This document shows positions 4,475-23,738 of a stretch of DNA of 25,449 nucleotides, piece after piece; within the stretch, counting starts at the first letter, position 1, and the number at the start of each line of letters is the position of its first letter. A program made the translations under genes and the position numbers. The notes beneath the pieces were generated by a model that saw only the letters and a list, made by a program, of their open reading frames with translations, searched no databases and was not told where the DNA came from. The DNA lies in IMG/VR virus record IMGVR_UViG_3300031999_000173, positions 1 to 25,449 of that record. The stretch is one strand, 5' to 3'. The stretch is from a virus.

Positions 4475-4492
4475 AACAAAGGGGCTTTTAAA

Positions 4493-5095
4493 ATGGCAAA
4501 ACCGACATTATTTCCAGATTGGGCGCTTTCAGACATTATTGACCCGACAAGCGGACAAAACAATGTTGTCGAACCGTCAGCTGGTCAAAAAAATACGGGC
4601 TGGACTTTTAAACAGTTTCCACCACGTCAATTTTTTAACTGGCTTTTAAGATTGACAAACGAATGGTTAAAATGGTTCGATGAAAGAATAACATATATTG
4701 AACTTGGATTTATTGACCGTTCCGCTGATATTATTGCATACAACGGATGGACATCTCTTACAACTAAAAAGTTTTTTGTTCGGGAAATAAACGACCTTGT
4801 TTTTATAAGTTATCATTTCGAAGGGGCTGGCGACCCGCTTAATATTACGGTTATTTATTTACCCGGGACCTTGGAACTTGCGGCGGATTCCGGGGCGGTC
4901 TTAACAATGAACTTATCTGTAAAGGACGGCGGCGCCGACACCCTGGGCGTTTCGGCTTTGGCCCATGAACTTAACGCGACACGAATTTATTTTTATCCGG
5001 ACTTAACGACGGGAATAACTATTCCTAATTCAACATGGACGGGTTCGGGTAATAAAAAAGTAAGCGGTTTTTTATGGTTTAAAAAGGAATTATAA
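4493..5095 (+). CDS. Tail fibre/collar protein, paralogue 1
   Basis: This 200-residue protein starts at an ATG preceded by AAAGGGGCTTTT. Residues 1-70 form a conserved N-terminal block: MAKPTLFPDWALSDIIDP, then GQNNVVEPS, GWTFKQFPPRQFFNWL and EWLKWFDERI. This block, with a WA near the start and FN-W residues ending in an amphipathic helix, is common at the attachment end of phage tail fibres. The rest is beta-rich and ends in TWTGSGNKKVSGFLWFKKEL. The next gene repeats the whole plan, so the two arose by tandem duplication. The N-terminus probably docks to the baseplate and the diverged C-terminus may face the host; this is inference. Confidence 0.65.
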   Translation: MAKPTLFPDWALSDIIDPTSGQNNVVEPSAGQKNTGWTFKQFPPRQFFNWLLRLTNEWLKWFDERITYIELGFIDRSADIIAYNGWTSLTTKKFFVREINDLVFISYHFEGAGDPLNITVIYLPGTLELAADSGAVLTMNLSVKDGGADTLGVSALAHELNATRIYFYPDLTTGITIPNSTWTGSGNKKVSGFLWFKKEL

Positions 5096-5097
5096 AA

Positions 5098-5667
5098 ATG
5101 GCAAAACCGACAAAACTTCCAGAATGGGCGTTGACGACAATTATTGACCCGTCAAGTGGTCAAAGCAATATCGTTGAACCGACCGCCACGCGGAAAAAAA
5201 CCGGTTGGATATTTAAAGAATTTCCGCCAAGGCAGTTTTTCAATTGGCTTTCAAATTTAATTTATAAATGGCTTAAATGGTTCAATGAAGAAATCACAGA
5301 AATCGACAGCGAGTTCGACGATTTTAGTACAGAATTAATTATCGGTTTTTCAGTATTTACAACAAAGATTTTAAAATTTAAAGTCTTAACAAGTGACGCC
5401 GTTTATATTATTTACGACCTTGAAGGAACAAGCAATCAAACCGACTTATATTTCAATTTGCCGTCTTCGATTCCCTCTCAATATGAATCGGGAAATGTTG
5501 TCGCGATTTCCCGAATAACTGATTCAGGCGTCGACGGAATTGGTTATTTAAATCTATCGGCGGGAACGCGACAAGTCAATATTTTCCCTTCGCTGGTCTT
5601 CGGGTCTTTGTGGACTGCAAGCGGAACAAAAAAAGTCAAAGGAAATTTTATTTATCGGCGGGGTTAA
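5098..5667 (+). CDS. Tail fibre/collar protein, paralogue 2
   Basis: This 189-residue protein starts two bases after the stop of its paralogue. Its first 70 residues closely follow the preceding gene: MAKPTKLPEWALTTIIDP, GQSNIVEP, TGWIFKEFPPRQFFNWL and KWLKWFNEEIT. The middle part differs almost completely. The last segment is again alike: WTASGTKKVKGNFIYRRG against WTGSGNKKVSGFLWFKKEL. A conserved anchor and tail with a variable middle is what one expects of duplicated fibre or collar genes under diversifying selection. No carbohydrate-binding or enzymatic motif was recognised. Confidence 0.65.
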   Translation: MAKPTKLPEWALTTIIDPSSGQSNIVEPTATRKKTGWIFKEFPPRQFFNWLSNLIYKWLKWFNEEITEIDSEFDDFSTELIIGFSVFTTKILKFKVLTSDAVYIIYDLEGTSNQTDLYFNLPSSIPSQYESGNVVAISRITDSGVDGIGYLNLSAGTRQVNIFPSLVFGSLWTASGTKKVKGNFIYRRG

Positions 5668-8521: not shown

Positions 8522-9149
8522 TATAATGACCGGGCCGCCATTGCCGCCCGAAGTTAAAAAAACCGCCGCTAATGTTCCCGCCGCAATCGAACCCGATTTC
8601 AAAGCCCGAAAATCCGACGTCGTCGAAATATTGGAAACGCAATTAATCGAAATGCAAGCGAAGCAAGTCAAGGCGCTTAACATGAATTACTTGCTTGATA
8701 AATTATATGATACACTTCAAGAAACGACCGACAAAGATGCGCTCTATTTCGTCCGCCTGGGCGTCGAAGATATGCGTTCACTTTTAAAAAAGATGTTGGA
8801 CGCTTTCGACGCGAAAATGGTCGAAATAATGAAGGGCGAAAAGATTCACGAATTCGAAGCCGGCCCGGAAGGGCGCCGCGCCGTCATTTATTATGGCAAG
8901 GAAAAAGACGAAACGTTGACTGATGATGGACTTCGGACTTTGCGCGATATGCTTAAAAGTGCCGAACCCGATGTTCAATTGGCTTTATTGGCTTTACCGA
9001 CGTCCGCGTCCGCCTGGAAACTTGCCAGGGTCAAAGAAATTGCGGACACGAAGGGACTTGAACGCGACGAAATGATTCGGACGGAATACAAAGACAAAGT
9101 CGCGGTTCAATACGTTCCGAAATATATTCTTGAAAAAGCGGGGCAATAA
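8505..9149 (+). CDS. Hypothetical protein preceding the recombination genes
   Basis: This 214-residue protein starts at GTG 8505 after AAAAGGGGTGAACC. It is largely helical and charged. Residues 35-105 look like coiled coil (EILETQLIEMQAKQVKAL onward). A middle segment (HEFEAGPEGRRAVIYYGKE) is followed by helical repeats. No catalytic motif was recognised. It ends in a TAATG overlap with the Rad52/Mgm101-like gene, so it may be a partner protein in recombination or single-strand DNA handling. That is inference from position only. Confidence 0.55.
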   Translation: MTVKSNIMTGPPLPPEVKKTAANVPAAIEPDFKARKSDVVEILETQLIEMQAKQVKALNMNYLLDKLYDTLQETTDKDALYFVRLGVEDMRSLLKKMLDAFDAKMVEIMKGEKIHEFEAGPEGRRAVIYYGKEKDETLTDDGLRTLRDMLKSAEPDVQLALLALPTSASAWKLARVKEIADTKGLERDEMIRTEYKDKVAVQYVPKYILEKAGQ

Positions 9150-10450
9150 TGGAAAATCAAAAAAACCTGATTCCGAACCCGCCGCCGGTCGATTCCGACC
9201 CGGCGAAACTTTACGCGGAACGTCCGCCGGATTTGCCGCAAACACACGCGGAATTTTACAAGGGCGCCGCGCTTTTGGAAATCAGCCAAAAGGAACGCGA
9301 CACTTTAAACGTGCCGGTCAATAATCAAGAAGTCGAAATCCGTCCGGACGGTCTTTTATATTTGCCGCAAGTTTTCGTCCGGGAAAAGTTGAACGCCGCC
9401 TTCGGCCCTGGTCAATGGGCATTGATTCAAAACGGAATTACAATCGTCGGGAATACGCTTTGCTTTGACGGGTCTTTAGTCATTCGCGGAAAGTTCGTCT
9501 CCCGCGCAATGGGCGAAGCCGATTATATACGGTCAAACAAAAATATGTCCTGGGCTACCGTTTACGAATCGGCTAAATCAGACGCAATCGCCCGCGCTTG
9601 TAAAGATTTAGGCGTCGCAAAAGAATTATGGCAACCGCAATTTTGCAGAAATTGGGAAAAGATATTCGCGATTAAAGTTTTTCGAACTGATAAGAAAAAT
9701 TGGCAATGGCGGCGGAAAGATGTTTCGCCATTTTGGGACGAAGCCGGAGCGCCCGCCGGGACCACGAACCAGGCCGCCCAGGGAACGACCGCCGCGCCCG
9801 CCGGGCAAACACCCGACCAGGGACGCCCGCCGTTGCGTAAATGTCCCGCTTGCGGGTCGGACGCAATAATCGCGTCGAAGCCGGAATATGGCGGGGGGTT
9901 TGTTTGTTACAAACGAAAGGGCGGATGCGGAAAAGTTTTTGAAGACGCCGCGTTGACAATTCCCAGGGAACCGAAGCCGCCGAACGGGAACGGGAACGGA
10001 AAGAAGCCGACCGGGACGCCCGGCGGAACTGATTCGCCGCCGCCGCCGTCCGACGACCAGGCGCCGCCCGAAACGGAACACCCGGACGTAATTAAACACG
10101 GCCCGCCGCCTTCGGGGGCGGCCCAGGCATTGAACGCTGTACAGGAACCGGACAAAACGCCGCCGTATAATGCCGCGCCGATTTCCGAAGCGGCGACCAG
10201 GAAACGGACGTCGGACATTGCAGACATTCGCGGTCTTTACGAAAAAAGCAAGGGCGCGTTGTTTGTCCGGGCCGCCGGAAAAGCAATTTTTTATTGCGTA
10301 AATGTTTTTATAAAACAAAACGTCGCGTCCTGGGTTCCGTTGAAAAATACCGATATTTCCGTCGTCCTGGAACATTTCAAGAACGCGCCGGAACTGGAAC
10401 GAACGCTTTCGGCATATATAGACAAATTTGAATCTAACAAGGGGGTTTAG
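9149..10450 (+). CDS. Rad52/Mgm101-like single-strand annealing recombinase
   Basis: This 433-residue protein starts at ATG 9149. Residues about 65-175 match the Mgm101/Rad52-type annealing core: RPDGLLYLPQVFVREKLNAA, FGPGQWAL, then MGEADY, WATVYESAKSDAIARACKDL and GVAKELWQP. The segment YESxKSDAxxRACKDLGxxxELWxP is the family hallmark. A zinc ribbon follows near residues 229-265 (CPACG, CYKR, CGKVF), then a Pro/Gly-rich linker and a C-terminal helical domain from about 345. Such proteins anneal complementary single strands in phage recombination and replication. The following gene encodes a DEDD exonuclease, which could supply single-stranded substrate. The extra zinc and C-terminal domains make it larger than typical phage members. 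Confidence 0.82.
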   Translation: MENQKNLIPNPPPVDSDPAKLYAERPPDLPQTHAEFYKGAALLEISQKERDTLNVPVNNQEVEIRPDGLLYLPQVFVREKLNAAFGPGQWALIQNGITIVGNTLCFDGSLVIRGKFVSRAMGEADYIRSNKNMSWATVYESAKSDAIARACKDLGVAKELWQPQFCRNWEKIFAIKVFRTDKKNWQWRRKDVSPFWDEAGAPAGTTNQAAQGTTAAPAGQTPDQGRPPLRKCPACGSDAIIASKPEYGGGFVCYKRKGGCGKVFEDAALTIPREPKPPNGNGNGKKPTGTPGGTDSPPPPSDDQAPPETEHPDVIKHGPPPSGAAQALNAVQEPDKTPPYNAAPISEAATRKRTSDIADIRGLYEKSKGALFVRAAGKAIFYCVNVFIKQNVASWVPLKNTDISVVLEHFKNAPELERTLSAYIDKFESNKGV

Positions 10451-11101
10451 TTGGAAAAAATACTTTGGCTTGATTCTGAAACGACCGGCATTGACCCGGT
10501 TCAAAACGATATAATTCAGATAGCGGGAATTATCGAAATTGACGGAGAAATCAAAGACGAATTCGAATTTAAATGTCGGCCCTGGAACCCGGCGAATATA
10601 AATCCGTCCGCGCTTGAAATGAATAAATTTTCCAAAGACGAAATATTGACCTGGGCGCCGCCGTCCGAAGTTAAGAAAAAACTTTTTGATATTTTCGGAA
10701 AATATATCGACAAATTTAACCGCGAAGATAAATTTCTGGTCGGCGGACATTGCGTTTCGTTCGACATACAATTCCTTGACCAATTTATTAAGAAGTCAGG
10801 CGACCGATACGGCGCCGGTTCATGGCTTTCATGGCAACCGTTTGACACAATATTTATCGCGGTATTGCTTAAACGCCTGGGAATAATTTCGCCGGTTAAT
10901 TTTAAACTTGAAACGCTTTGTCAGGTCTTCGGTGTTCCGCCTGGCGGACACGATGCGCTTAAAGATATACGCGTGACACAATTGGTCGGCTTAAAAATGT
11001 TTAATCTTTTTAAAAATATCCGACAACCGCTCATTGAAATATCAAAATCGTTTCAAAAAGAATTGTCGGAAATTTTAAAAGATAATTATTTCGAAACTTG
11101 A
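10451..11101 (+). CDS. DnaQ-like 3'-5' exonuclease (DEDDh)
   Basis: This 216-residue protein starts at TTG 10451 behind AAGGGGGTTTAG, with no gap after the recombinase gene. All five DEDDh residues are present: D8 and E10 in LDSETTG, D105 in HCVSFD, and H167 and D172 in GGHDALKD. The family removes nucleotides from 3' ends in proofreading or recombination. The pairing with an annealing protein suggests a two-part phage recombination system. The last about 30 residues extend beyond the nuclease core as a helix. It is the last gene before the promoter at 11098. Confidence 0.88.
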   Translation: MEKILWLDSETTGIDPVQNDIIQIAGIIEIDGEIKDEFEFKCRPWNPANINPSALEMNKFSKDEILTWAPPSEVKKKLFDIFGKYIDKFNREDKFLVGGHCVSFDIQFLDQFIKKSGDRYGAGSWLSWQPFDTIFIAVLLKRLGIISPVNFKLETLCQVFGVPPGGHDALKDIRVTQLVGLKMFNLFKNIRQPLIEISKSFQKELSEILKDNYFET

Positions 11102-13111: not shown

Positions 13112-13250
13112 AAGAAAAGAGCAAAAACTAAACTGGATTTTGATAATGAACGAACGGCAAATTTGGGAAATTGAGCGTTGGATTCGCGGGGCGAAACTAA
13201 CAGCCGCCCAGGTCGAACGGTTACGAAAAGCATTTAAGGGGGTTTTGTGA
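13098..13250 (+). CDS. Small basic helical protein
   Basis: This 50-residue protein starts at ATG 13098, inside the end of the RusA-like gene, and ends with a GTGA overlap onto the next gene. It reads MKPFKRKEQKLNWILIMNER, then QIWEIERWIRGAKLTAAQ. It is very basic and helical. Translational coupling at both ends supports coding. Function unknown. Confidence 0.45.
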   Translation: MKPFKRKEQKLNWILIMNERQIWEIERWIRGAKLTAAQVERLRKAFKGVL

Positions 13251-13804
13251 ATGAAAAAAAAGAAGTCGAAGTATTGGATTTGTTCGGATATTCTCCAAAA
13301 GAAAAAGAACGGTTCGGTTTGATAAACGACTGGTTAGTCGAAAAGATGCAAGGGCCGGGCGGGACGTTTTGTCCGCTTTGCAAACAGCGCGTCAAGTTGT
13401 ATTTGCGGACTATTAATAAAAGCATGGTCAAGGGTCTTGTTTTGATTTATAAATATTACTTGACCCATAATAAGAACGTCCCGCTTCATATCGAAGGCTA
13501 TCTAAAACGCTGTCGCGTTTCGTCCGCCGTCCGGGGCGACATAACAAAACTATGTTATTGGGGTTTACTTAAACGGTACGAAAAAATCAAACAAGACGTT
13601 TCGGAACGTCGCGGAAAATATTGGATTACGGCGGACGGCGAAGCGTTCGTTCGCGGAAATTTAAAAGTTCCCAGGTATGCGAAAATTTTTAATAAAAAAT
13701 TTTACGGTTTCGAAGGGGACAAAATCGGAATCGGCGATGCAATGAAAACCGTATTTAATTATGATGAAGAAATGAAACGGTCAATAGAATATTTGGAAGA
13801 TTAA
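13247..13804 (+). CDS. Conserved phage protein with winged-helix-like core
   Basis: This 185-residue protein starts at GTG 13247 after AAGGGGGTTTT. It has FCPLCKQRVKLYLRTI near residues 42-57 (one CxxC), and then a helical stretch with VRGDITKLCYWGLLKRYEK. Last comes RRGKYWITADGEAFVRG, which looks like the wing of a winged-helix domain. The pattern KYWITxxGxxFVxG...VPxYxxIxNxxxxGF is one I recall from phage hypothetical proteins. DNA binding, perhaps in replication or transcription control, is plausible but unproven. It is the last phage-type gene before the cassette block, whose first hairpin begins ten bases after the stop. Confidence 0.55.
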   Translation: MNEKKEVEVLDLFGYSPKEKERFGLINDWLVEKMQGPGGTFCPLCKQRVKLYLRTINKSMVKGLVLIYKYYLTHNKNVPLHIEGYLKRCRVSSAVRGDITKLCYWGLLKRYEKIKQDVSERRGKYWITADGEAFVRGNLKVPRYAKIFNKKFYGFEGDKIGIGDAMKTVFNYDEEMKRSIEYLED

Positions 13805-13814
13805 AAATAAATTG

Positions 13815-13849
13815 TTATACGCTTAATTGCGTATAATAACGAGTTGTAC
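13815..13849 (+). other. Left boundary of the cassette array: hairpin plus core site
   Basis: TTATACGC (13815-13822) and GCGTATAA (13829-13836) form a perfect 8-bp stem with a TTAATT loop. Six bases later comes the core site GTTGTAC (13843-13849), where cassette 1 begins. The L''/L' stem, six-base spacer and R' layout is that of an attC half. No R''-like sequence with AAC is seen on the left, so this may be the original phage target, an attI-like site or a truncated attC. Confidence 0.5.
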
Positions 13850-14313
13850 TAAATAATGGCCGTAGGAATGTCGCGCTAAAACAAAGAAAGGAGATGACAT
13901 GCTTGCAGAGTACAAAGCAGAAAACAGAAAAGACGAAAACGGAAACCCAACCGGAGGAAGTGTCAGGGGTACGGGAATGTCGATTGATTGGCAGGATGGG
14001 CCGTTGGGTAGAGGTGCGGAAAGAAAAGAGCCAAACGGTGCTTTCGTTGAAACTGTAATTGACGCGGCACGGCAGCGCATACAGTTTTATCAGGACTCAA
14101 AATTTAATTGCAGAGAGAACGCTATTGCAATTACTAAGCTGGAAGAGGCTTTGCTGTGGCTTAATAAGCGCACAGCAGACAGAGAAAAAAGACAGGTCGA
14201 AGGAACGCATACAAATTAATAAAGAGCGCGACTTTATATGATTTTTGCGGCCATTACTCAGTACAACTCCCGCATGGTGAAAATTGCTAATGCAACTTCA
14301 CCATGCTATAACG
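13844..14313 (+). mobile_element. Integron-type gene cassette 1 (Tad1-like gene)
   Basis: The cassette runs from the T after the G of GTTGTAC (13843) to the G of GTTGTAT (14313). It is 470 bp with one gene and an attC-like end. The R'' box at its end, GTACAAC (14261-14267), is the exact reverse complement of its own starting core GTTGTAC. This match is expected because a cassette circle joins these two halves. Size, single gene and orientation fit known cassettes. Confidence 0.65.
13899..14219 (+). CDS. Tad1-like protein (Acb2/Tad1 hairpin family), candidate anti-Thoeris sponge
   Basis: This 106-residue protein starts at ATG 13899 behind GAAAGGAGATGAC. After a variable N-terminus come D30WQDGP35 and P45NGAFVETVIDA, then F69NCREN74AIAITKLEEALLWL88, R91T92, R95 and VEGTH (100-104). 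The order QxGP, NG, fxCREN, AIxxLEEAxxWLxxRTxxRxxRxVEGT is the pattern I recall for Tad1. Tad1 binds cyclic ADP-ribose signal molecules made by the host Thoeris defence and so blocks abortive infection. Related Acb2 proteins sequester CBASS cyclic nucleotides. The conserved Asn, Arg and Thr positions near the C-terminus are the ones expected to line the ligand pocket. Ligand identity cannot be read from sequence. It is the only gene of cassette 1. Confidence 0.75.
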   Translation: MLAEYKAENRKDENGNPTGGSVRGTGMSIDWQDGPLGRGAERKEPNGAFVETVIDAARQRIQFYQDSKFNCRENAIAITKLEEALLWLNKRTADREKRQVEGTHTN

Positions 14314-14319
14314 TTGTAT
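14261..14319 (+). other. attC-like site 1
   Basis: The layout is R'' GTACAAC (14261-14267), spacer TCCC, L'' GCATGGTGAA (14272-14281), central part, L' TTCACCATGC (14297-14306), spacer TATAAC, and R' GTTGTAT (14313-14319). The L stem is perfect over 10 bp. Inside it TTGC pairs with GCAA, leaving unpaired bases, as attC recombination sites do. R'' and R' pair in six of seven positions. The total is 59 bp, within the usual attC range. Confidence 0.65.
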
Positions 14320-14364
14320 GCAATTGCGAAACGTCTTACATTGTAAATTTTTGCCTTAATCATC

Positions 14365-14385
14365 AGTTGCACATCGTGTGCAACT
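14365..14385 (+). promoter_or_regulatory. Perfect 9-bp hairpin before the methyltransferase start
   Basis: AGTTGCACA, a TCG loop and TGTGCAACT form a perfect inverted repeat ending 14 bases before ATG 14400, next to the weak ribosome-binding region AAAGAG. It may be an operator, for example for autoregulation by the methyltransferase, or an RNA hairpin affecting translation. No T tract follows. Confidence 0.45.
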
Positions 14386-14399
14386 AAAGAGAAAACAAA

Positions 14400-15071
14400 A
14401 TGAAAACACTCATAGCGTGTGAAGAATCCCAAGCGGTCACAATCGAGTTCCGCGCACTTGGACACGAGGCGTATTCGTGCGACATTCTACCGTGTTCCGG
14501 CGGCCATCCGGAGTGGCACTTGCAGAAAGATGTAGCGGAGGTATTAAAAGAAAAATGGGATATGGTTATTGCATTTCCTCCGTGTACTCATTTGGCTGTA
14601 AGCGGGGCGGCTCATTTTGCAAAAAAACGTGCTGACGGACGGCAACAGCAGGGTATCGATTTTTTCATGGAATTTACAAAATTAAACTGTGCGTATGCGA
14701 TAGAAAACCCTGTTGGTATTATGTCAAAGATATGGCGCAAACCGAATCAAATTATTCAACCGTGGCAGTTTGGTGATTCATTTCAAAAACAGACTTGTTT
14801 ATGGCTTAATGAATTGCCTAAGCTTACCCCCACCAATATCGTAAATCGCGGAGAGTTCAAGACATACAAAGACGGAAGTGTAAGGGCTGTATGGTTTAAT
14901 GTGTGGGGGTCAAAAAATGTTAATCTGCATAATTACAGATCAAAAACCTTCCCCGGAATAGCAAAAGCAATGGCAATGCAATGGGGAAGCGCGTCCTGCG
15001 CTCAAGAGTTAGGCAAAAATGACACTATGGAAGTTTCGCAACAGCACACAACAGCCACTGTGACGCAATGA
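14400..15071 (+). CDS. Phage-type C5 cytosine DNA methyltransferase
   Basis: This 223-residue protein starts at ATG 14400. N-terminal LIACEESQAVTIEFRALGHE is a SAM-binding motif I like those of C5 methyltransferases. P60PC62THLAVSGA carries the catalytic Pro-Cys. AIENPVGIMS and KPNQIIQPWQFGD follow, then CLWLNELPKLTPTNIV and RSKTFPGIAKAMAMQWG near the C-terminus. This short form, lacking a large target-recognition domain, is widespread in phages as a DNA cytosine methyltransferase. Protection of phage DNA from restriction is the likely role. The last about 25 residues (ELGKNDTMEV onward) are read through the attC-like element and are not family sequence. Codon use differs from the surrounding phage genes. 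Confidence 0.78.
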   Translation: MKTLIACEESQAVTIEFRALGHEAYSCDILPCSGGHPEWHLQKDVAEVLKEKWDMVIAFPPCTHLAVSGAAHFAKKRADGRQQQGIDFFMEFTKLNCAYAIENPVGIMSKIWRKPNQIIQPWQFGDSFQKQTCLWLNELPKLTPTNIVNRGEFKTYKDGSVRAVWFNVWGSKNVNLHNYRSKTFPGIAKAMAMQWGSASCAQELGKNDTMEVSQQHTTATVTQ

Positions 15072-15101
15072 GTACACTGCGCACAATGGCAAACGTTGGA
15101 C
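15046..15101 (+). other. attC-like site 2
   Basis: The layout is R'' ACACAAC (15046-15052), L'' GCCACTGTG (15054-15062), an unpaired A at 15063, CGC (15064-15066) pairing with GCG (15079-15081), L' CACAATGGC (15082-15090), spacer AAAC, and R' GTTGGAC (15095-15101). The L stem has one C-A mismatch. The single bulged A in the left arm matches the extrahelical base typical of attC hairpins. The stop codon of the methyltransferase gene lies inside the site. Confidence 0.6.
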
Positions 15102-15484
15102 GAAATTAGACCGCTCTGAAAATATTAGGGCACGCTGAAAACCAAAACAAAAGAAGGAGAAGGTATGCATTACAGGAATGGTCGGGAAGCTCGAAATGGT
15201 GACGTTGTTGTTTCTATCCCTAAGAATGGAGTTCCGGCAGTCGGGATTCTGTATGGTGCGACGGCAGGGAATGATTACTGCAATGGTAGGCTGGCTCAAA
15301 TGTCGAGCGCTGACCCTTACTCGAATTTGAAGGACTGCCTTCATATTGAAGATGCGAAAATACCCGGATGGGAAGAAAAGCCAAGCGCGCCGGACACTAA
15401 GGAAGCGGTCTAACATCGTCCAACAAATGCATGGCGGGGAGTACCCCCAAATTTGGAGTACCAAACTTCGCCATGCATCGGACG
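15096..15484 (+). mobile_element. Integron-type gene cassette 3 (small conserved phage protein)
   Basis: The cassette runs from the T after the G of GTTGGAC (15095) to the G of GTTGGTG (15484). It is 389 bp with one gene. Its R'' box GTCCAAC (15418-15424) is the exact reverse complement of its own starting core GTTGGAC. This is the second exact start-to-end match in the array. Confidence 0.63.
15165..15413 (+). CDS. Small conserved phage protein (YRNGREARNGD type)
   Basis: This 82-residue protein starts at ATG 15165 behind AGAAGGAGAAGGT. It reads MHYRNGREARNGDVVVSIPK, then GILYGATAGNDYCNGRLAQM and DPYSNLKDCLHIEDA. I recall short proteins with NGxxAxxGDxV, GNDxCNGRLA and the CLHIED ending from many phages; they remain uncharacterised. 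The N-terminal part may be a small beta barrel. In a cassette beside a Tad1-like gene and a methyltransferase, a counter-defence role is worth testing, but nothing in the sequence proves it. The stop codon lies five bases before the R'' box of the attC-like site. Confidence 0.6.
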   Translation: MHYRNGREARNGDVVVSIPKNGVPAVGILYGATAGNDYCNGRLAQMSSADPYSNLKDCLHIEDAKIPGWEEKPSAPDTKEAV

Positions 15485-15490
15485 TTGGTG
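15418..15490 (+). other. attC-like site 3 with branched tip
   Basis: The layout is R'' GTCCAAC (15418-15424), L'' ATGCATGGCG (15427-15436), L' CGCCATGCAT (15469-15478), spacer CGGAC, and R' GTTGGTG (15484-15490). The L stem is perfect over 10 bp. Between the arms lie two small hairpins with the same AGTA loop, GGGG/CCCC and TTTGG/CCAAA, so the folded strand would have a forked tip. The total is 73 bp. Confidence 0.62.
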
Positions 15491-15520
15491 TAAATGGCCT
15501 TTATTAAAGGAGTTCGCGCA

Positions 15521-15817
15521 ATGAAAAAGAAAAAAGAAGTTACCCCGATGTGGACAACCGTGGTTGATCCAGGCGAATATGATTACGTTGGAGATTTTGA
15601 ATCTATGGTAAATATTTCAAATAAAAAAGAACAATGCTATTGCGATATGGATGTGGGTAAAGTTTGGGGCCTTGTTTTAGCTTACAAAAAACTGCGCTCA
15701 CAAATTAAGGAACAGGACGCATTCACCAACAAACAAAGTACGCCATTACCTTTCGATGGTGTTAGTGATAATCATTGTCCGAGGTGTGGATATTATTTGA
15801 AGGCTGGAAGAGAATAA
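15521..15817 (+). CDS. Hypothetical protein of possible cassette 4
   Basis: I chose ATG 15521, behind AAAGGAG, giving 98 residues; an in-frame ATG at 15494 has no ribosome-binding site. The AAAGGAG sits in the near-palindrome CCTTTATTAAAGG. The protein reads KKKKEVTPMWTTVVDPGEYD, then CYCDMDVGKVWGLVLAYKKL, and ends with CPRCGYYLKAG, one half of a zinc ribbon. Its ribosome-binding site type and codon use resemble the cassettes rather than the phage. CACCAAC at 15724-15730, inside the gene, is the exact reverse complement of the preceding core GTTGGTG, so the gene may be a cassette fused to phage DNA. Function unknown. Confidence 0.45.
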   Translation: MKKKKEVTPMWTTVVDPGEYDYVGDFESMVNISNKKEQCYCDMDVGKVWGLVLAYKKLRSQIKEQDAFTNKQSTPLPFDGVSDNHCPRCGYYLKAGRE

Positions 15818-15920
15818 CGGCGTACATTTGTCGCTTGATATTTGGGAACATAGTCATTCCCGCAAGTATGGCCGGGACACTAAAAAATATAATTACGATT
15901 TATTTAAAAAGGGGGTTTAA
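15801..15920 (+). pseudogene. Remnant 3' end of a phage gene after the cassette array
   Basis: A frame different from the 15521 gene runs open from just after a TGA at 15798 to TAA 15918-15920. It encodes LEENNGVHLSLDIWEH, SHSRKYGRDTKK and YNYDLFKKGV. It has no start codon. Its codon use is phage-like, and its end carries the AAAAAGGGGG ribosome-binding site and the TAATG overlap of the next gene, as complete phage genes here do. It looks like the tail of a gene whose 5' part was lost or displaced by the inserted block. A frameshift linking it to the 15521 gene (CPRCG part) is an alternative. Confidence 0.4.
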
Positions 15921-16390
15921 TGGAAAAACTGTTCGCGCCCGCGCGTTACTGGACGTTGACGCCCGAAGAAAAAAGATTTCTTTGTAATGGTTGTGGCCCG
16001 AAGTTTCACGGAATCGGCGATTATCTGGTTCCCGATAATATCCTGGGTGTTAATATTACCGCGTCTTGCGACATACACGACTTTATGTATTCCGAAGAAA
16101 CGCCGTTCGGGAACGATACGAAAGACAAAGCCGACCGGTCATTTCGGATAAATATGATTCGGCAAATTGATAACACAATGGGCGACCCGCCGCCGCTTAA
16201 AAGACACCGGTTCGCCTTGGTTCAATGGTTTATAAACGCCGATCGCCGCGCTTGGTTCACGTTAAAAGCCAAACGATATAAAATCACGGAAATTTATTTC
16301 GAAGCCGTTTCGCATTTCGGCGGGGCCGCTTATTGGAAGGGCAAAAATAAAGTTTGCGAACTTGGAACGTCGGAGTCTTGCAATGGGTAA
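15920..16390 (+). CDS. Phospholipase A2-fold protein
   Basis: This 156-residue protein starts at ATG 15920 behind AAAAAGGGGGTTTA. N23GCGP27 is followed by a loop rich in Gly and Asp, then C50DIHDFMY57 and, about 15 residues later, DKADRSFRINMI. The CxxHDxxY catalytic helix, with His53 and Asp54, and the second acidic helix are the core of phospholipase A2. The CGP loop is placed like its calcium-binding loop. Short proteins of this type are known from phages but poorly studied. Possible roles are membrane disruption at entry or lysis, or a structural use of the fold. No signal peptide is seen. Confidence 0.65.
   Translation: MEKLFAPARYWTLTPEEKRFLCNGCGPKFHGIGDYLVPDNILGVNITASCDIHDFMYSEETPFGNDTKDKADRSFRINMIRQIDNTMGDPPPLKRHRFALVQWFINADRRAWFTLKAKRYKITEIYFEAVSHFGGAAYWKGKNKVCELGTSESCNG

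Positions 16391-18718: not shown

Positions 18719-18722
<4 letters not shown>
18537..18722 (+). CDS. Small cysteine-rich basic protein
   Basis: This 61-residue protein starts at ATG 18537 in an ATGA overlap and ends in another. Cysteines occur in CKFREYCLSTCK and CKPAFCK, five in all, in a Lys-rich protein. A compact metal site with nucleic acid contact is possible. No family recognised. Confidence 0.5.
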
Positions 18723-19918
<1,196 letters not shown>

Positions 19919-20595: not shown

Positions 20596-20786
20596 CACCG
20601 CAAAAAAAATATAAATTAAAAATGCTTACTTTGGGTCTTTGTCAAGATTGCGGGGAAAAAGCGGTCAAAAAAAGATACTGTTTAAAACATTATAAATTAC
20701 AAAATAGTTATATAGCAAAATGGAAGCGAAAAAAACGAATTCAAATTAAAGCTAAAAAATATTTAAGGGATAAAAATATAAGATGA
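20592..20786 (+). CDS. Small zinc-binding basic protein between terminase genes
   Basis: This 64-residue protein starts at TTG 20592 (TTGA overlap) and ends with an ATGA overlap to the large terminase gene. It has CQDCGEKAVKKRYCLKHY, a Cys-Cys-Cys-His set typical of small phage zinc proteins, and a Lys/Arg-rich tail. It lacks the full HNH catalytic pattern, so I do not call an endonuclease. Its place suggests a DNA-packaging accessory role. Confidence 0.5.
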   Translation: MTPQKKYKLKMLTLGLCQDCGEKAVKKRYCLKHYKLQNSYIAKWKRKKRIQIKAKKYLRDKNIR

Positions 20787-22315
20787 ACCCGAACGCCGTC
20801 GCCGCCGGGCGAATATTCCGCGAACGCCTTGACCGCCTTGTCATTATACAACAAGACGACGAAGCGCTTGCGGCGTCTTTCCGAAAGTACAAGAACGACC
20901 CGGTTCAATATATTAATGACTGGTTTGTCACCTACGACCCGCGCGAAAAGCCCGCTTTAATGCCGTTCATTCTTTGGCCGAAGCAAGTTGAATATTTGCT
21001 TTGGTTACGGGAACGGTACGAAAAGAAAGAAGATTTTCTTGTTGAAAAGTCCAGGGACGCGGGCGCGACTTATTTAAACATGGCGTTCAGTCTTTGGCTT
21101 TGGCGGTTTTATCCTGGTTCGAAAATCGGTTTCGGTTCCCGAAAAGAAATGTTAGTTGACCGCCTGGGCGACCCGGATTCGATATTCGAAAAAGGGCGAA
21201 TAATGCTTCGGTATTTACCAAACGAATATTTACCGAACGGTTTCGACCCGGACACACACACGCCATTTTTAAAAATCATTAATCCGTCAAATGGAAATAC
21301 AATCACCGGCGAAGCGGGCGACAATATCGGACGCGGCGGTCGAAATTCTCTTTATTTTAAGGACGAATCGGGGCATTATGAACACGCGGAAAAAATCGAC
21401 GCCGCGCTTTCAATGAATTCCGACGTCAAGGGCGACATTTCAACGCCGAACGGAACCGGGAACCCGTTTTATAAAAAGCGCGTCGGCGGGTTTTTCAAAG
21501 TATTCTTTTTTGACTGGCGGGACGACCCGAGAAAAGATGACGCCTGGTATAAGCGCGAACTTGACAAGAACGGCCCGGTCATTATGGCCCGCGAAGTTGA
21601 CCGGTCTTATACTGAAAGCGTTGAACGAATTTGTATTCCGGCGAACTATGTTCAAGCGGCGGTTAATTACCCGATTGCGGCCCAGGGCCAAAAAGTCGCG
21701 GGCCTGGACGTTGCAGACGAAGGCGACGACTTGAACGCTTTAACCTTGCGTCAAGGCGTCGTTTTAAATACCGTTGAATCCTGGAAGGAAGGGAACACCG
21801 GCGAAACGACCCGGCGGGCCGCCTGGACGTTGCAAAAGAACGACATAAACATTTTAAAATATGACTCAATAGGCGTCGGGGCCGGAGTTAAAAGCGAGAT
21901 AATGAACTGGAACGCCCGCGAAAAATTCAAGATACGCGGGCAGGGCGTCAACTTTGGGGCGGCGGTCACAGACAAAGACGTTATTCAAGGCAAGAAAAAT
22001 AAAGATATGTTTTTAAATTTGAAAGCCCAATTGTGGTGGGCGCTTCGACTTCGATTCGAAAAAACCTGGGAAACAAAAACCGGAAAACGAAAACACCCGC
22101 CCGAAGAAATGATTTCGATTATTAATCACCCGCAATTGATTCTTGAATTAAGTCAACAGCGTTATGAGTTCGACGAAGGTTCCGGACGCCTTCGCATGGA
22201 ATCAAAAAAGAAAATGAAAGCGAGAGGAATCGCGTCGCCGAACCTTGCCGATTCTCTTGTTATTTGCTTTTCGCCGGTTATTGGATTAGATTTAATAATG
22301 TTGACCCAGGACTAA
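20783..22315 (+). CDS. Terminase large subunit
   Basis: This 510-residue protein starts at ATG 20783. FILWPKQVEYLLWL precedes an adenine-binding and Walker A-like segment, E88KSRDAGAT96, in the deviant form found in large terminases. Walker B is NSLYFKDES near residues 186-194. The C-terminal nuclease begins with GLDVADEGDDLNAL near residue 312, which carries the first acidic residues of the RNase H-like site; LADSLVICF near the end fits the last acidic position. It powers DNA packaging through the portal and cuts the concatemer. Length and neighbours (small terminase, portal) are normal. Confidence 0.9.
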   Translation: MNPNAVAAGRIFRERLDRLVIIQQDDEALAASFRKYKNDPVQYINDWFVTYDPREKPALMPFILWPKQVEYLLWLRERYEKKEDFLVEKSRDAGATYLNMAFSLWLWRFYPGSKIGFGSRKEMLVDRLGDPDSIFEKGRIMLRYLPNEYLPNGFDPDTHTPFLKIINPSNGNTITGEAGDNIGRGGRNSLYFKDESGHYEHAEKIDAALSMNSDVKGDISTPNGTGNPFYKKRVGGFFKVFFFDWRDDPRKDDAWYKRELDKNGPVIMAREVDRSYTESVERICIPANYVQAAVNYPIAAQGQKVAGLDVADEGDDLNALTLRQGVVLNTVESWKEGNTGETTRRAAWTLQKNDINILKYDSIGVGAGVKSEIMNWNAREKFKIRGQGVNFGAAVTDKDVIQGKKNKDMFLNLKAQLWWALRLRFEKTWETKTGKRKHPPEEMISIINHPQLILELSQQRYEFDEGSGRLRMESKKKMKARGIASPNLADSLVICFSPVIGLDLIMLTQD

Positions 22316-22337
22316 AACTTTAAAAAGGGGCTTTTTT

Positions 22338-23738
22338 GTGAAACGTAAATCCGGACAAGTCAAAGCGATTCGGAACGACCAGGCCGCGCCGCAAGCGTCC
22401 AGGGCCGACGGTTGGTTAAATCTTTTCACGGGACTTGGAATTCAAAACCGCGACAAAACACTTTCGACAACGGTTTCCCGCGATAACAACTTGCACGAAA
22501 CGGACTTGACTTTATTGTTCCGGTTCAACGGTCTTGCGAAACGAATTGTCGAATTGCCAGTCGGCGAAATGACCCGGAAAGGTTTCACAATAAAGAACGA
22601 TACCGACGGCGTTTTATTAAAAGCGTTTAACGATATGAACGTCGCGAAGGAATTCAGGAATTTAATTCGTTGGTCGAAAGTTTACGGCGGCGCGATTATG
22701 GTTCTTTGGATAGATGACGGTTCCGCCGATATGACCGTCCCGCTTAACGAAAAAGATATTCGTTCAATTTCAATGGTTCGCGTTTATCAGCGTTGGAGAA
22801 TTGACGCGACGACCGACATTGAAACCGATTATAAATCTATAAATTTTAACAAGCCGCGAACTTATGGCGTCTTTCCGGTTCGCGGTTCGCCGTTCCGGGT
22901 TCATTATTCCCGCGTTATTGCTATGGACGGTCTTGAACTTGCCGAAACCGAACGGCTTCAAAATAACGGGTGGGGCGATTCTGTTTACCAGGCAATGTTT
23001 GACCGCCTTCGCGCCCTGGGCGCTATTTACGGCGCGACTGATAACATAATGGAAGACTTTGTTCAAGGCGCTTTGACAATGAAAAATCTTCAAGAAATGA
23101 TTGCAGGCGGACAAGAAGACGTAATTAAAAAACGCCTTGATTTAATTGATATGTCCCGCCACGTTATTAATACTATGTTGCTTGACGAAAACGAAACGTA
23201 TGAGAAAAAGACGACAAGTATTTCAGGCCTTGCCGACGTCCTGGACAAATACAGTCAGTCACTAAGCGCCGTGACAGGAATTCCGGTCACGTTATTAATG
23301 GGCCAAAGCCCGGCGGGACTTTCCGCGACCGGCGCGTCGGATATTCGTTTTTGGTATGACAAAATTAAAAGCGAACAAGACGAAAGTTACAAGCCCGCGT
23401 TATATCGGTTTTTCTATTTACTGCAAATTGCAAAGCAGGGGCCGACCGGCGGAAAAGAAATCAAGAATTGGGAAATCGTTTTCGCGCCGCTTATGGAAAT
23501 GACCGAAACGGAAATCGTAACAAATAGAAAACTTCAAGCGGAAACGGACGCCGTATATATTACCAATGGCGTCTTGACACCGGACGAAGTCGCGATTTCA
23601 AGATTCGGCGGCGACAATTATTCGCTTGATACGAAACTATTTTCCGAAGACCGACAGGCCGCAAGCGACGGCGTCAAGGAACCAGGAACCGACAAAGACG
23701 AAGACGAACCCGACGGCCACGAAACAGAAGGGGCTTAA
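22338..23738 (+). CDS. Portal protein, DUF1073 type
   Basis: This 466-residue protein starts at GTG 22338 behind AAAAAGGGGCTTTT. Early segments LFRFNGLAKRIVELPVGEMT and the middle RWSKVYGGAIMVLWID match the DUF1073 portal family, as do SRVIAMDGLELAE and ITGIPVTLLMGQSPAGLSAT-like text (TGIPVTLLMGQSPAGLSATG). The final 30 residues are acidic and disordered. Twelve copies would form the ring at the head vertex through which DNA enters and leaves. Members of this Pfam family also gave rise to the Acb1 anti-CBASS enzymes, but length and position between terminase and MuF genes indicate the portal here. Confidence 0.85.
   Translation: MKRKSGQVKAIRNDQAAPQASRADGWLNLFTGLGIQNRDKTLSTTVSRDNNLHETDLTLLFRFNGLAKRIVELPVGEMTRKGFTIKNDTDGVLLKAFNDMNVAKEFRNLIRWSKVYGGAIMVLWIDDGSADMTVPLNEKDIRSISMVRVYQRWRIDATTDIETDYKSINFNKPRTYGVFPVRGSPFRVHYSRVIAMDGLELAETERLQNNGWGDSVYQAMFDRLRALGAIYGATDNIMEDFVQGALTMKNLQEMIAGGQEDVIKKRLDLIDMSRHVINTMLLDENETYEKKTTSISGLADVLDKYSQSLSAVTGIPVTLLMGQSPAGLSATGASDIRFWYDKIKSEQDESYKPALYRFFYLLQIAKQGPTGGKEIKNWEIVFAPLMEMTETEIVTNRKLQAETDAVYITNGVLTPDEVAISRFGGDNYSLDTKLFSEDRQAASDGVKEPGTDKDEDEPDGHETEGA

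Follow-up and report, generated by a model that had tools for sequence, protein, structure and literature searches.

A Tad1-family gene is the first of three integron cassettes in a phage contig

Integrons stockpile antibiotic-resistance and bacterial defence genes. The locus described here raises the question of whether a phage gene directed against bacterial immunity can be carried, and exchanged, in the same form. A first-pass annotation, made from sequence alone, had proposed that a gene for a 106-amino-acid (aa) protein encodes a Tad1-like anti-Thoeris candidate carried by an integron cassette, and that counter-defence genes would then move by cassette recombination and not only by homologous phage recombination. 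The window analyzed here, 25,449 bases long, makes up an entire viral contig; the features that bear on the question are listed in Table 1.

Table 1. Features of the cassette array and of its phage surroundings
Feature	Coordinates	Strand	Remarks
Left phage flank protein, function unknown	13247-13804	+	phrog_2693; weaker match to phage transcriptional regulator
Hairpin beside left insertion point	13814-13840	+	inverted GTTRRRY-like arms (GTTATAC ... GTATAATAAC)
Cassette 1, 470 nt	13844-14313	+	carries Tad1; starts TTGTAC, ends with G of attC1 R' box
Shine-Dalgarno-like AAAGGAG	13887-13893	+	ahead of Tad1 gene, read from sequence
Tad1-family protein gene, 106 aa	13899-14219	+	ATG start; N-terminal strands, two long helices, VEGTH tail
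attC1	14261-14319	+	R'' GTACAAC, L'' GCATGGTGAA, L' TTCACCATGC, R' GTTGTAT
Cassette 2, 782 nt	14314-15095	+	orphan DNA methyltransferase; missing to the base in sister phage
Phage DNA methyltransferase, 223 aa	14400-15071	+	phrog_757, E 3.5e-67
attC2	15046-15101	+	R'' ACACAAC, R' GTTGGAC; L arms GCCACTGTG.../...CACAATGGC
Cassette 3, 389 nt	15096-15484	+	starts TTGGAC, R'' GTCCAAC at end
Small phage protein, 82 aa, function unknown	15165-15413	+	cassette 3 ORF
attC3	15418-15490	+	R'' GTCCAAC, L'' ATGCATGGCG, L' CGCCATGCAT, R' GTTGGTG; right end of array
Terminase large subunit and portal protein genes	20783-23738	+	phage genome marker

Sequence, profile and fold place the 106-aa protein in the Tad1 family. 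It shared 55% identity over 82 aa with the founding anti-Thoeris Tad1 of phage SBSphiJ7, with identity peaking in the last 40 residues, and it scored 28.7 bits against the Pfam family Acb2_Tad1_hairpin (PF24729; cut-off 27), on which the founder itself scored 34.2 bits. A phmmer search against the PDB returned CmTad1 (E 3e-15) and CbTad1 (E 1e-12), and a profile of 61 relatives reached the PDB Tad1 proteins at E 1e-23 to 7e-21. No Acb2 chain was named among the PDB sequence matches of the protein, and NCBIfam gave no Tad1 match. Across the 61 relatives, the invariant columns were G47, R60, R91, T92, R95, E101 and G102, and thus included the C-terminal tail; this tail is reported to line the ligand pocket (PMC12043709). 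The CbTad1 pocket residues F82 and N92 would correspond to Y64 and N74 in the 106-aa protein.

An AlphaFold monomer model (pLDDT 95.7) consisted of strands at residues 5-11, 17-24 and 27-31 followed by helices at 50-65 and 72-97. The arrangement by which we recognize Tad1, an N-terminal antiparallel sheet with two long C-terminal helices, was present, with three strands as against the four described for Tad1. In a Foldseek search, the top 20 PDB matches were without exception Tad1 chains, some of them in complex with 1''-3' gcADPR, with 1''-2' gcADPR or with cyclic trinucleotides; CmTad1 and gcADPR-bound CbTad1 were matched at E about 1e-6, with probability 1.00 and a TM score of up to 0.77. 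Phage T4 Vs.4, a member of the Acb2 family, was reached at E 2.7 only, and the protein does not conform to Acb2 as a short helical protein without an N-terminal sheet.

Most of what the first-pass annotation said about the protein held. The reading frame was exact to the base, and all of the named motifs were present (QDGP at residues 32-35, PNG at 45-47, FNCREN at 69-74, ITKLEEALLWLNKRT at 78-92 and VEGTH at 100-104). A structure prediction without the helical hairpin had been named as an outcome that would refute the idea; instead, the model has the two long helices and matches Tad1. The Tad1-like identity is upheld by sequence, profile and fold, while signal binding and protection are only inferred. 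What failed was the claim that the N-terminus is longer (about 27 residues) than the core needs: it is shorter than in other Tad1 proteins. A length of 106 aa is the norm in this subfamily, as against 123-138 residues in the solved Tad1 chains and 142 in SBSphiJ7 Tad1.

By homology, from which binding is inferred, the protein very probably soaks up bacterial immune alarm molecules. A rival reading accepts the Tad1 fold and assigns it a narrowed or different role, for example the binding of CBASS signals only, as for Acb2, or of another nucleotide signal. In favor of this rival, the N-terminal sheet of the subfamily is shorter (three strands, 106 aa), a WQxGPLGRG..RKEPNGAFVE segment is distinctive of the subfamily and absent from solved Tad1 proteins, and the range of cyclic dinucleotides bound varies among known Tad1 proteins (PMC12043709). 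Against it, the protein is almost the same as the anti-Thoeris SBSphiJ7 Tad1 in its helices and tail, and gcADPR-bound CbTad1 is among the best structure matches. An altered role is, in our view, unlikely, and we retain the reading of a Tad1-type signal sponge.

The gene for this protein lies in a three-cassette array that spans 13844-15484, in which an attC-like foldable site closes each cassette. Sites were scanned for with a simple home-made scorer, which gave attC1, attC2 and attC3 scores of 17.5, 14 and 16; matches at these scores arose in shuffled sequence at a rate of 0.03 per kb or less. Real phage DNA gives isolated chance matches near a score of 14, and some false ones were seen elsewhere in the window. 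DNA-folding z-scores were -6.8 for attC1, -4.7 for attC2 (bottom strand) and -6.0 for attC3 (bottom strand), and not one of 200 shuffles folded as well as any of the three sites on its best-folding strand. The cassette-specific complementarity of R' and R'' boxes is a stronger signal than the scorer values: the left border GTTGTAC (13843-13849) complements GTACAAC of attC1 at 7/7 positions, and GTTGGAC of attC2 complements GTCCAAC of attC3 at 7/7, counting in both cases the G of GTT. The left border of the array (13843/13844) adjoins the GTTRRRY-armed hairpin. No sigma-70-like promoter was found across 13600-15600, and an Rfam search of the window returned no matches.

We also noted 29-nt inverted stretches at the ends of cassette 1 (13841-13869 and 14241-14269), which are 83% complementary and extend beyond the R boxes. 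Cassette ends at another Tad1 locus, L005, resemble them.

Such hairpins might be ordinary terminators or palindromic repeats, in which case related phages would differ here by illegitimate or homologous recombination, and there would be no cassette system. This rival draws support from the mosaicism of phages, from the commonness of intergenic hairpins, and from the false matches that the scorer yields within the window. The evidence against it comes from a sister phage, IMGVR_UViG_3300031707_000057 (loci L003/L004), a 39,776-base viral contig with 98.8-99.9% identity to the window and the same gene order around the array. The sister keeps Tad1 and cassette 3 and is without the 782 bases 14314-15095. 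Its junction, TATAACG/TTGGACG (the slash marks the crossover), is the left part of attC1 fused to R' of attC2, with exact identity over 1,714 nt to the left and 8,252 nt to the right, and the 782-bp difference is the sole large insertion or deletion in the 23.8 kb compared. At the crossover, attC1 and attC2 have only AACG/TTG in common; these 7 nt are far fewer than homologous exchange, or a collapse by the assembler, would need. The boundary falls at the G/TT of two attC R' boxes, and the junction is what an integron integrase leaves, whether by insertion or by excision. No phage with an empty insertion site turned up: searches with the flank DNA and with the left flank protein led to the sister contig alone.

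The attC sites and this exact G/TT presence/absence show that the Tad1 gene is a genuine integron cassette, the first of three. The cassette claim of the first-pass annotation therefore held, on three attC sites and on a cassette present or absent at the exact G/TT crossover. Its further idea, that counter-defence genes are cassette-mobile, is supported; the loss or gain observed is that of the methyltransferase cassette beside Tad1.

Moreover, the arrangement recurs in other phages. We surveyed Tad1 relatives at 79 viral loci, about 74 of which were not in a detected cassette. At L006 and L066, Tad1 sits between two attC sites with 7/7 matches of R' and R'', a clear two-sided structure; the 34-kb L006 contig encodes a portal, an internal virion protein and an exonuclease and has at least four attC sites, and the 50.9-kb L066 contig, which encodes a portal and a major head protein, has attC sites of a different, GTTCGCC type. 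In the 53.7-kb L005 contig, which has a tape measure gene, a chain of attC sites precedes Tad1 and a degenerate site follows it; the GTTGTAT boxes at the two ends are identical. At L078, Tad1 is preceded by a good attC and followed by a matching R'' box that is without a clear second half. At L047, one good attC lies upstream of Tad1 and no closing site was seen. At L015, a long chained attC array stops upstream of Tad1, which is hence beside the array and not clearly inside it. In a tree of the family, cassette-borne Tad1 proteins fell into two groups split by a 99% supported branch; the tree rests on few columns, and its finer forks are unresolved. L005, L006, L066 and L078 all lie on phage contigs, and Tad1 is cassette-borne in several unrelated phages. 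Similarly, relatives of the cassette-2 methyltransferase were bracketed by attC sites, with 7/7 R'/R'' matches, in three more phage groups (L105, L114 and L117/L118); shuffled flanks gave no bracketed methyltransferases, and overall bracket counts of 0-0.3 per set. Relatives of the 82-aa protein of cassette 3 number in the hundreds among viral contigs.

Candidate attC sites near Tad1 at twelve further loci (L010, L016, L018, L023, L045, L054, L061-L063, L065, L081 and L082) were set aside as apparent chance matches or simple hairpins, and a strong hairpin directly after Tad1 at L050 may be a terminator. As a separate observation, arrays with R boxes of the GTTCGSC/GSCGAAC type occur in viral contigs (L066, 4802-5353; L078, 1572-5224; L242), with Tad1 or relatives of the ORF in cassette 3 as their cargo; they are perhaps the type of another bacterial phylum.

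Against the rival without a cassette system there stand, in addition to a boundary at the G/TT of two R' boxes that have 7 nt in common, the R'/R'' complementarity specific to each cassette and the same architecture around Tad1 (L006, L066) and around methyltransferases (L105, L114). We consider that rival very unlikely and keep to the cassette reading.

A third rival holds that the contig is a misfiled bacterial chromosomal integron, or a prophage inserted beside one, and cassette arrays are indeed typical of chromosomal integrons. However, the array lies among phage genes, with structural genes upstream of it and genes for terminase, portal and MuF downstream, the gene order is kept in the sister contig, and no tyrosine recombinase gene was found. 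The terminase and portal genes place the array in a phage genome, and we regard this rival as all but ruled out. A search of a plasmid collection gave no Tad1 relative. Nine relatives occur in bacterial genome contigs, and L085, the only one of these scanned for attC, had none; on one scanned contig, a chromosomal origin of the cassette is neither supported nor excluded.

Where, then, does the integrase come from? The window, the sister and the L005, L006, L066, L105, L114 and L117 contigs gave no tyrosine recombinase match, and both window and sister failed to qualify as a complete integron, that is, an intI gene and an attI site beside the array. An integrase gene is present on the L015 contig, and the L078 contig gave a weak tyrosine recombinase match. 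As no recombinase gene was found in the window, the sister and most of the carriers, the simplest reading is that the integrase is supplied in trans by the host; we hold this to be likely, the host IntI itself being inferred. The ends of the window and sister contigs are not known, hence an integrase elsewhere in the genome cannot be excluded.

Several other features of the window were noted in passing. A gene for an Mgm101-like single-strand annealing protein adjoins one for a DnaQ/RNase T-type exonuclease (9149-10450 and 10451-11101), a plausible recombination pair. An ORF at 18719-19918 encodes a fusion of a ParB-like protein and an N6/N4 methyltransferase, with a GCC-repeat alanine run mid-gene, and a small ORF at 15920-16390 weakly matches prokaryotic phospholipase A2 at E 7e-4, which is below the cut-off. 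Lastly, a 224-nt repeat of 72% identity (4478-4701 and 5083-5306) lies in the adjoining paralogous ORFs 4493-5095 and 5098-5667.

Taken together, we favor a joint reading, a Tad1-type sponge borne on an integrase-less cassette array that uses a host integrase, and we think it very likely correct, with binding, multimer, timing and IntI all inferred. Under this reading, the sponge would be made during infection and would assemble into a multimer; known Tad1 is a hexamer of three dimers. The multimer would trap the cyclic ADP-ribose molecules with which Thoeris signals, and probably the cyclic oligonucleotides of CBASS as well, so that the suicide effectors of the host would stay off. A host integron integrase acting in trans would cut at G/TT in folded single-stranded attC sites, and cassettes would be inserted or excised singly, which may allow a phage to acquire or shed its counter-defence genes individually. 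In a bolder version, on which we are undecided, some phages keep integrase-less arrays as exchangeable counter-defence slots; that the integrase of an integron-bearing host shuffles Tad1, orphan methyltransferases and other anti-defence genes in each infection could equally well prove right or wrong. With sponge and anti-restriction methyltransferase cassettes side by side in one phage, integron machinery appears to serve the attackers, and it may offer phages a route, via a host enzyme, for quick adaptation to new immune systems.

How does this array compare with known systems? With the Tad1 proteins of SBSphiJ7, CbTad1 and CmTad1, the 106-aa protein shares the hairpin domain, the predicted fold and a C-terminal motif (CRENA-ITKLEEAL-WLNKRTA-RE-R-VEGTH); it differs in its shorter N-terminal part (106 vs 123-142 aa), in its conserved subfamily segment and in its carriage on an integron cassette. 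With Acb2, the anti-CBASS sponge, it shares the Pfam hairpin domain, but Acb2 is without the N-terminal beta sheet, of which our protein has three strands, and in sequence and fold the protein is much closer to Tad1. The array itself has precedents. Integrase-less attC clusters (CALIN) with methyltransferase cargo have been described in virulent phages (Qi et al. 2023, PMC9892861), and other phage attC sites were recombined by IntI1 in the laboratory (PMC9892861). Our array meets the CALIN criteria of at least two attC sites with R''/L''/L'/R' architecture and of G/TT boundaries, and shares with the published clusters the lack of an integrase, the methyltransferase cassettes and the adjoining GTTRRRY-armed hairpin; the array of phage TJE1 likewise adjoins a terminator hairpin, and such motifs may have aided incorporation (PMC9892861). 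By contrast, the sections of PMC9892861 consulted mention neither Tad1-type cassettes nor cassette gain or loss between sister phages, and the open-access literature that we searched, with subscription journals mostly outside it, gave no account of a cassette that carries a Tad1-type sponge. What is new here is that a signal-sponge counter-defence gene is carried as a cassette, across two Tad1 groups and in several phages that are not related. Also new is the sister-phage pair, in which exact cassette exchange is documented; it is a natural case in phages that goes beyond laboratory attC assays. Phages thus seem to exchange counter-defence genes through cassette recombination.
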